Source: Deltaproteobacteria bacterium CG_4_9_14_3_um_filter_63_12 (GTDB lineage Bacteria; Myxococcota_A; Bradymonadia; UBA4248; UM-FILTER-63-12). From it: a stretch of DNA of 33,415 nucleotides. Positions 4,338 through 6,766 of this stretch are shown here, in pieces (within the stretch, counting starts at the first letter, position 1; each line of letters starts with the position of its first letter). The stretch lies in contig PFUG01000245.1 of NCBI GenBank assembly GCA_002789955.1, positions 1,983 through 35,397 on the forward strand, given 5' to 3'. Position numbers and translations under genes: made by a program. The notes below the pieces were generated by a model. The model saw nothing but the letters and a program-made list of their open reading frames with translations. It searched no databases and was not told the DNA's origin.

Positions 4338-5936
4338 TCAACGGCCTCGCTTGCGCACCAGCTTTGCACGCACCCGGCTGCTCAGGCGGGACCAGTCGCT
4401 TGGCACCAGCACACGCGCCAGGCCCGCAGCCACCGCCCCACCGAGCACTCCACCTACCGTCACCCGCAACAGCGCGTCCAACGACACCCCCCAAGACGGC
4501 AGCAACAACATCCATCTGCACATGAGCGCCGCCACCAGCGAGCCACCACCCGCGATGACCAAGCCGCGCAGCGTACTGTCCAACAGCGAACGCAGGCTCA
4601 TCGCCCGGTTGCTGCGCTTGTAGGCCAGCACCGTCACCAAGGCCTGGGTCGTGATCCCGATCGTCGCCGCCAGCGCCAGCCCAGACGCCCCCATCCGGTC
4701 GCCCAACGTCATATAGAGGGGCACGCTCCCCAATGTTACGACAGTGCTCAAGGCCATGGGGGTGAGGGTGTTCTGCTCTGCATAGAATCCCCGCGCCGCA
4801 ACCATCTGGACGCCCCATGAGGCAATCCCCAGCGCAAACAACTCCAGCACCGCCGTCGCACGCGCCGAGTCTAAAGCCGTGAACGCCCCCCGCTGGTAGA
4901 CCAGCGTCACAGTGGGCTCCGCCAGCGCGACCATCAGGCCGCCTGCCGTCAGCGCCAACAATATGACGTAGTGCAACGAGCGGGTCAGCATCATCGCCAG
5001 CTCGTCGCGCTTCCCCTCGCCGGCCAGCCTCGACAGGAAGGGCAGCGCCGCCTGGCTCGCCGCCTGGCCGATCACCGCGATGGGCACCAACATCAGTCGG
5101 CGTCCGTAGTTCAGCCAGCTGATCGTTCCCGTCTCCATCGCGCTGCCGAGAATGCGGCCAAACCACTCATCCAAAGTGACCAAGCTCACGCCCAGCATCA
5201 GCGGGATCGTCAGCAGGACGTACCTGCGGAACTCCACCTCTCGCCAGGCGAAGTGTGGCCGGTACTGCAGGCGGTCGCGGGCCAAGTAGAGCGACAGCCC
5301 AAACGGCCCGATCACTGCGCCGATTAGGGCGCCGACTGCAAACCCCGCCATCCCCATGCTCGAACCGAGCAGCAGCCCGAAGAAAATGATGCTCCCGTTG
5401 TAGACCAGCGGCGCCAGCGTCGCCGCTGCAAAGCGGCCTTGCGCCATCAACGTCGCCAGGATCAGGCCGCCGATGTAGTGGAAAAACTGACACGGCAAGA
5501 CGATCCGAGTCATCTCCACGGTCAGCTGGGTTGCGGCCGGGCCGAAGTCCGGAAAGAGCAGGTGGATGAAGTATTCGGTGAACACCTCGGCGACCACGAT
5601 GCCTGCGAGGAGGACGCCGCCCATCACGGTGGCGATGGTCGAGAAGAGCTTCCACCCCACGCTCTCTCGGTCCTGCGCGAGGCAGGCGCCAAACAAAGGG
5701 ATGAACGTGATCGACAGCGTTCCCCCGGCCAAAAAGTAGTTCATCAAGTCGGGCAGCAGAAACGCCGCGTTGTAAGCATCCGTCGCGACGCCCGCTCCCT
5801 GCTGGTAGGCGATCACCGCCTCGCGCACGTAGCCCAACACACGCGACAGCAGAATGCCCACTGACAGCATCAGCGCAGCGATCCCTACTCGCTTACCGTG
5901 CAGCGCGCTGACGGCTCGGTGGCTGAGCTCACTCAT
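4338..5936 (-). CDS. murJ: Lipid II flippase MurJ
   Basis: 532 aa polytopic protein with MurJ/MviN motifs: GILLSRVLGYVREAVIAYQQGAG.ATDAYNAAFLLPDLMNYFLAGGTLSITFIPLF; Q-A-ALPFLSRLAGEG. Confidence 0.94.
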   Translation of the reverse strand: MSELSHRAVSALHGKRVGIAALMLSVGILLSRVLGYVREAVIAYQQGAGVATDAYNAAFLLPDLMNYFLAGGTLSITFIPLFGACLAQDRESVGWKLFSTIATVMGGVLLAGIVVAEVFTEYFIHLLFPDFGPAATQLTVEMTRIVLPCQFFHYIGGLILATLMAQGRFAAATLAPLVYNGSIIFFGLLLGSSMGMAGFAVGALIGAVIGPFGLSLYLARDRLQYRPHFAWREVEFRRYVLLTIPLMLGVSLVTLDEWFGRILGSAMETGTISWLNYGRRLMLVPIAVIGQAASQAALPFLSRLAGEGKRDELAMMLTRSLHYVILLALTAGGLMVALAEPTVTLVYQRGAFTALDSARATAVLELFALGIASWGVQMVAARGFYAEQNTLTPMALSTVVTLGSVPLYMTLGDRMGASGLALAATIGITTQALVTVLAYKRSNRAMSLRSLLDSTLRGLVIAGGGSLVAALMCRWMLLLPSWGVSLDALLRVTVGGVLGGAVAAGLARVLVPSDWSRLSSRVRAKLVRKRGR

Positions 5937-5985
5937 CGAGCTGCGCCATCACGTGCACCGGGAATTGGCTCATCTGGGCTGCCAT
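5929..5985 (-). CDS. Candidate 18-aa leader/upstream ORF of murJ (MAAQMSQFPVHVMAQLDE)
   Basis: ATG at 5985-5983, TGA at 5931-5929. Preceded by AAAGGAG 4 nt upstream. The stop overlaps the murJ start region (ATGAGTGA). Below the length cutoff of the supplied ORF track. Confidence 0.35.
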   Translation of the reverse strand: MAAQMSQFPVHVMAQLDE

Positions 5986-5990
5986 GCCAC

Positions 5991-6024
5991 TCCTTTCGCT
6001 CGCAATCCGTTGCGAGCGAAAGGA
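5991..6024. repeat. Perfect 15-bp inverted repeat (4-nt loop) in the murJ 5' leader
   Basis: TCCTTTCGCTCGCAA-TCCG-TTGCGAGCGAAAGGA read on the + strand; arms are exact reverse complements. Confidence 0.95.
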
Positions 6025-6070
6025 TTTGTCTCGTCCGCCGGACCAGTCTTGAGCGCCGAACCGACCGCAA

Positions 6071-6099
6071 GATATCTCAACTCGCTCGAGTTATGGCAA
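6071..6099 (-). promoter_or_regulatory. Possible murJ promoter
   Basis: Minus strand TTGCCA (6099-6094), 17-nt spacer containing AACTCG-ag-CGAGTT dyad, GATATC (6076-6071). Weak -10 match. Confidence 0.25.
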
Positions 6100-6203
6100 G
6101 GACGCCGCTCAGCGCAGGTCATGAGCGCTCGTGCGTGATCCCTAGGCTTGCCCCACGAGGGCCACATTGGGTACGCTCCACCGTCGCACAGGCCGCTCCA
6201 TTT

Positions 6204-6242
6204 GGTTCGTAGGCGTGGTTCGTAGGCGTGGTTCGTAGGGGC
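6204..6242. repeat. Three tandem copies of a 13-bp unit
   Basis: GGTTCGTAGGCGT / GGTTCGTAGGCGT / GGTTCGTAGGGGC, read directly. Confidence 0.9.
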
Positions 6243-6265: not shown

Positions 6266-6766
6266 GTGCTGACGCAGAAGCCAGAACCCGTTCGAAGACC
6301 TCGAGGTTTCATTGACGTGAAGCTGACCACCCTCGAAAAAGTGCTCCACCTGAGGCGGGTTCCTCTCTTCTCCGAGATGACCGGGCGCGAGCTGAGGCAG
6401 GTCGCCGAGATCGCTGCAGAAGAGGTCTTTCCTCCCAAGGAACGCATCTTTAGCGAGGGTGACCCAGGGTCCAAGCTCTATATCTTGGTCGAAGGCGTCG
6501 TCGAGATCTCCCTCGAAGGAACCTTGCTCGCCGAGGTCGGCGTGGGAAACTTCTTCGGCGAAATGAGCATCTTCGACAAAGAGCCCCGCTCCGCCAGCGC
6601 CACGACCAAGAACAAGGTCGTCAGTCTGACGCTGAGCAGCTCCGATTTCCGTGAGCTGGTCTTCGTCTTTCCGTCGGTCGTCTTCCCGATCTTGCAGCAC
6701 ATCAGCCGCAATCTTCGCAAGGCAAACGCCGAGGTCCGCGCGCTGAGCCAGGAGCAGAAACGCTGA
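6266..6766 (+). CDS. Cyclic nucleotide-binding (Crp/cNMP-type) domain protein, single domain
   Basis: LTTLEKVLHLRRVPLFSEMTGRELRQVAEIA...IFSEGDPGSKLYILVEGVVEISLEGTLLAEVGVGNFFGEMSIFDKEPRSASATT is a cNMP-binding jelly-roll. No HTH follows. Alternative GTG start at 6317. Confidence 0.86.
   Translation: MLTQKPEPVRRPRGFIDVKLTTLEKVLHLRRVPLFSEMTGRELRQVAEIAAEEVFPPKERIFSEGDPGSKLYILVEGVVEISLEGTLLAEVGVGNFFGEMSIFDKEPRSASATTKNKVVSLTLSSSDFRELVFVFPSVVFPILQHISRNLRKANAEVRALSQEQKR

Follow-up and report, generated by a model that had tools for sequence, protein, structure and literature searches.

This locus raises the question of how translation of a murJ gene is started and controlled when its start codon has no Shine-Dalgarno (SD) sequence and lies behind a long hairpin. 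In the window, i.e., the whole stretch of 33,415 nt that was analyzed, murJ is located on the minus strand (4338..5936) and encodes a lipid II flippase of 532 amino acids, identified by a profile match to the Pfam family PF03023 (E = 3e-70). MurJ is normally essential. The ATG at 5936-5934 is the sole in-frame ATG, GTG or TTG ahead of the conserved region; the open frame starts 12 nt 5′ of it, and there is no other start codon in that stretch. As background, a sample of 1.22 Mb (15% of the genome) was used, in which genes were predicted with a simple codon-based gene caller. Scored alongside 703 sampled genes, the murJ ATG has an SD match of 0, as have 118 of these genes. By local folding, a hairpin AGCUCG-AUGAG-UGAGCU (5926..5942, minus strand) is predicted, the loop of which holds the murJ AUG, and for the region from -20 to +20 more structure is predicted than for 94% of 701 gene starts. 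Compared with dinucleotide shuffles, this start hairpin is not significant (z about -1), and its folding does not exceed what composition gives.

Upstream of murJ, an ORF of 18 codons (uORF; MAAQMSQFPVHVMAQLDE plus stop codon) is located at 5929..5985 on the minus strand. It starts with the ATG at 5985 and stops with the TGA at 5931-5929, which results in an 8-nt overlap with the murJ start inside ATGAGTGA. Its SD sequence AAAGGAG (5990..5996, minus strand) is positioned 4 nt (TGGC) before the ATG and matches 7 nt of AAAGGAGG. Matches of at least 7 nt were found in just 16 of the 703 sampled genes and in one of 1,666 intergenic ORFs. The codon score of the uORF is +0.20 per codon, compared with an average of -0.29 (sd 0.22) for intergenic ORFs of 12-30 codons, of which 1.3% (of 1,666) score as high; over 17 codons, the uORF scores at least as high as 63% of real gene starts. 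The G + C counts at the three codon positions (13, 5 and 14 of 17) are gene-like, and in a codon scan the coding-like frame shifts from that of the uORF to that of murJ at the overlap. Due to the codon score, the 7-nt SD match and this frame switch, translation of the uORF with initiation at ATG 5985 is likely. It is less certain that a separate peptide is made. Two other ORFs in the leader, one of 65 amino acids on the minus strand (5970-6167), which reads through the hairpin and could open it, and one of 45 amino acids with a TTG start (5933-6070), have negative codon scores and are probably not coding.

The leader sequence of the minus strand is TCCTTTCGCTCGCAA-CGGA-TTGCGAGCGAAAGGA-GTGGC-ATG, and it is predicted to fold into a hairpin of 15 perfect base pairs with a 4-nt loop (5991..6024). 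It consists of the 5′ arm at 6024-6010, the loop CGGA at 6009-6006, which becomes a hexaloop ACGGAU if the closing A-U pair opens, and the 3′ arm at 6005-5991. AAAGGA of the uORF SD lies within the stem. All elements of the original prediction, namely a 15-bp stem burying AAAGGA, an uORF and its 8-nt overlap with murJ, could thus be confirmed. The predicted energy of the hairpin is -25.1 kcal/mol, while shuffled sequences average -8.1 (z = -6.5) and none of 200 folds as well. No other perfect 15-bp inverted repeat with a short loop is found within the window. When SD-plus-start sites in the 1.22-Mb sample were searched for a perfect stem of at least 8 bp over the SD, the murJ leader was the only case, and no equal of its complete architecture was found in this sample. 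In a model of the 141-nt leader, pairing of the uORF SD reaches about 99% at 37 °C. An RNA thermometer was ruled out by a temperature series, because the SD stays 95% paired at 65 °C.

A REP element, which had been named as an alternative, was refuted. When up to 3 mismatches are allowed, the full hairpin sequence has a single match in the draft genome (8.29 Mb, 689 contigs), and for this reason it is not a REP element. The half-sites gave 14 matches at 2 mismatches vs. 12 and 5 in a reversed-pattern control, i.e., no clear excess, and a dispersed repeat was ruled out as well. The operator of a multi-copy regulon was also rejected, as no second good copy was found at 3 mismatches. The window contains no match to an Rfam family or known riboswitch above the gathering score, and no plasmid homology was found for the leader.

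The reading preferred here, with a probability of roughly one half, is that translation of murJ is controlled by a bicistronic leader, in which an SD-sequestered leader cistron is coupled to murJ by termination-reinitiation. Ribosomes would enter at the SD AAAGGAG, read the 18 codons of the leader cistron up to the TGA in ATGAGTGA and, after termination there, reinitiate at the overlapping murJ ATG, which lacks an SD and lies in a hairpin loop. Because the hairpin hides the SD of the leader cistron, the murJ output would be set by how often the hairpin opens. Translation of the uORF, reinitiation and regulation by hairpin opening are inferred. As for the control of murJ that had been suggested originally, the coupling is well supported by the anatomy and the coding statistics and the occlusion of the SD is strongly predicted; a switch, i.e., a signal that opens the hairpin, is conjectural. 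Overall, this suggestion is partly supported. If real, the arrangement would show that a mini-cistron can limit, at the level of translation, how much of an essential lipid II flippase is supplied, and one more SD-sequestered coupled uORF would be added from outside the model species.

Coupling of this kind was demonstrated experimentally for ORF27-iraD of E. coli, where CsrA binding represses ORF27 (PMC5574718). As in murJ, the stop codon of a short ORF with its own SD overlaps the downstream start, the downstream initiation region is folded and a GGA motif is located at the SD of the short ORF (PMC5574718). Control exerted on the short ORF reaches iraD via the coupling, and the same is proposed for murJ. 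Unlike murJ, iraD has its own SD, which is located in the sequestering structure (PMC5574718), whereas in the murJ leader the uORF SD is buried in a perfect 15-bp hairpin, murJ is without SD and binding of CsrA is hypothetical. The two genes are different and homology is not claimed. In uPPE2-ppe2 of M. tuberculosis, where coupling was also shown experimentally, expression of ppe2 requires the uORF by termination-reinitiation (PMC11260477). The downstream gene again lacks an SD, and stop and start codon overlap, in AUGA for ppe2 and in AUGAGUGA for murJ. The uORF SD of ppe2 is under the control of RNA folding, and the same anatomy is predicted at murJ. The ppe2 leader carries a B12 riboswitch aptamer (PMC11260477), whereas the murJ hairpin offers no space for an aptamer and the window is without an Rfam match. 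The original prediction had called control of murJ by a leader peptide or switch unusual. In the open-access literature, no description of murJ being controlled by a leader peptide or an SD hairpin was found; the mechanism itself is already known and less unusual than claimed, because iraD and ppe2 share the layout. What is described here is a proposed coupled-leader mechanism of a known kind, the application of which to murJ is unreported in open-access papers and which is seen in one draft genome.

Conservation speaks against a locked leader. Neither a comparable hairpin with an SD nor this uORF is present in any of the 29 class members compared, including all eight members of the order, and the hairpin sequence is absent from all 56 other genomes of the class. 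The closest relatives compared are at order level, with MurJ identities of about 47-57% to the eight order members, and the arrangement was seen in one draft genome. A weak uORF-like frame occurs in one relative only, the order member L004.

The same comparison brings up a frameshifted N-terminus, according to which MurJ starts at ATG 5985 and a 1-nt shift near 5929-5940, caused by an assembly error, a true mutation or, rarely, programmed frameshifting, splits off the first ~17 codons. In that case, the SD locked in the hairpin would be that of murJ. This explanation is unlikely but has to be taken seriously, because the order members carry long N-terminal extensions of MurJ: 33-78 residues in all eight (L004-L011), compared with 14 residues in the murJ described here. 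These extensions are disordered-looking. The joined frame would add ~17 residues and bring the extension close to that of the shortest relative, and the coding-like codons and the strong SD of the uORF next to a murJ ATG without SD fit a split gene as well. However, the junction contains no homopolymer. Outside the order, the MurJ N-termini of most class members are short, with a length similar to MSELSHRAVSALH-GKR, and the uORF peptide, as judged by eye, does not look like the extensions in the order, which are acidic or polar. Furthermore, frameshift errors look rare in this genome, since the spacings of tandem genes in the 1.22-Mb sample are clean, though the gene caller rejects large overlaps, which limits these counts. 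Almost every overlap is -4, -8, -11 or -1, and -14 and -37 were each found once; those of 4 nt are the commonest (44 cases), and 8 nt, as between uORF and murJ, were found in two cases.

The coupled leader also has to be weighed against an incidental role of the hairpin. Read on the plus strand, it is followed by TTTGTCTCG and resembles an intrinsic terminator (5991..6033), with TTTGTCT as a terminator-like tail. The hairpin could accordingly be a plus-strand terminator or another DNA-level element, the role of which is to end antisense transcription or to shield the divergent gene, with its overlap with SD and uORF being secondary. The tail keeps this explanation alive, and perfect hairpins of at least 12 bp are common in the genome and mostly located 3′ of genes. 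In the 1.22-Mb sample, 45 such hairpins with loops of 3-8 nt were detected, of which 16 are located in convergent and 14 in tandem regions, 8 inside genes, 5 at contig edges and 2 in divergent regions. As the sampled ones are mostly convergent or 3′ of genes, long perfect hairpins are an ordinary terminator style here, and the murJ hairpin is exceptional by its position: it is not 3′ of any gene and is one of the two in divergent DNA, which amounts to ~70 kb in the sample vs. ~27 kb of convergent DNA with its 16 hairpins. The end of the stem meeting the 7-nt SD of a coding-like, murJ-coupled ORF is unlikely to be due to chance, and the minus-strand tail GTGGC is not terminator-like. Altogether, an incidental hairpin is considered quite improbable. 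A minus-strand terminator for an upstream RNA was rejected as well, since there is no U tract.

Among the sampled hairpins, some are unusually long, with perfect stems of 14-22 bp and loops of 3-5 nt (e.g., L044:6892, L087:5570, L090:12428, L121:3189). They are mostly convergent or 3′ of genes and probably terminators, and the U-tract often lies inside the stem. A core CTCGCTTCGAG is common to three hairpins (L043:10856, L053:10027, L080:11884), and the one at L080:11884 is the only divergent-region perfect hairpin of at least 12 bp besides that of murJ.

A further point against the locked leader is that no convincing promoter was found, and the 5′ end of the mRNA could lie inside the hairpin. 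A stricter scan for sigma-70 promoters upstream of murJ yielded none. The sole candidate of a relaxed scan is a weak sigma-70-like promoter TTGCCA-17-GATATC with a TG before the -10 (6071..6099, minus strand), which would place the hairpin inside the mRNA; such a match is not evidence of function. In modelled mRNAs starting at 6016 or lower, the SD is largely free. This leads to the explanation that the 34-bp palindrome is a DNA site for a repressor or activator and that the murJ mRNA starts inside it with a free SD. A long perfect palindrome upstream of murJ would suit such an operator, and a permanently locked SD on an essential gene is hard to explain; without an opener, an SD lock of -25 kcal/mol on the normally essential MurJ would be costly. 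At 3 mismatches, the core CGCTCGCAA-N4-TTGCGAGCG gave 17 matches per orientation vs. 5 in the control. On the other hand, the full palindrome is single in the genome at this threshold, and the 16 core matches besides murJ are partial palindromes (e.g., C286:19091, C559:2089, C624:2694). A sigma-70-like -10 was not found in the right place, and a perfect 15-bp arm exceeds what most operators need. An operator with an internal transcription start is hence held to be very unlikely, slightly more so than an incidental hairpin.

For the coupled leader, CsrA is the only candidate named for opening the hairpin, and the loop sequence draws attention to it. The genome encodes a single canonical CsrA (E = 3e-22; MLTLTRKVGE...PREVKIYREEVY). 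As criteria for CsrA/RsmE sites, a GGA in an ANGGAX hexaloop and another one at the SD, separated by 10-63 nt, have been described (PMC7652899, PMC4005645). The murJ loop ACGGAU fits this hexaloop, a second GGA is located at the SD and the distance between the two motif starts is 15 nt. For a single hairpin, however, an ANGGAX loop is a 1-in-256 match, and it was noticed after the fact. In 696 leaders, A.GGA. loops on stems of at least 3 bp were counted 12 times in sense and 5 times in antisense orientation, with too few cases at longer stems. CsrA sites obtained by SELEX mostly have four or fewer contiguous pairs and the consensus RUACARGGAUGU (PMC7652899). The 15-bp stem of the murJ hairpin is not short or weak, and ACA before the GGA is missing. 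For these reasons, i.e., the stem and the poor fit to the consensus, murJ was not assigned as a CsrA target, and judged from the motifs, the link of its hairpin to CsrA is only suggestive.

Among the known CsrA/RsmE-controlled leaders, that of ymdA in E. coli is described as an SD-hiding hairpin opened by CsrA, and, as at murJ, this hairpin bears a GGA motif (PMC7492729). A coupled uORF was not noted for ymdA. The perfect 15-bp stem of murJ would be harder to open, and an action of CsrA at murJ is a guess. An ACGGAU hexaloop on a stem at the ribosome-binding site is shared with the RsmE site of hcnA in P. fluorescens (PMC4005645). There, the stem-loop encompasses the ribosome-binding site and the recognized GGA lies in the loop, whereas at murJ the loop GGA is separate and the GGA of the SD is paired in the stem. 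In a speculative extension of the coupled leader, which is considered very unlikely, MurJ synthesis in this lineage would be gated by an RNA-binding protein, with CsrA as the likeliest one, the binding of which to the ACGGAU loop would open or stabilize the SD hairpin. If true, it would tie the export of cell-wall precursors to a carbon and stationary-phase regulator.

The divergent gene (6317..6766, plus strand) encodes a stand-alone cyclic-nucleotide-binding domain protein (PF00027, E = 2.4e-19) without an output domain. It starts with GTG, and a longer form would start at 6266. In the relatives, no cyclic-nucleotide-binding gene adjoining murJ was found. Between murJ and this gene, a short tandem repeat GGTTCGTAGGCGT is located at ~6206-6240, with three copies of which the last is diverging.
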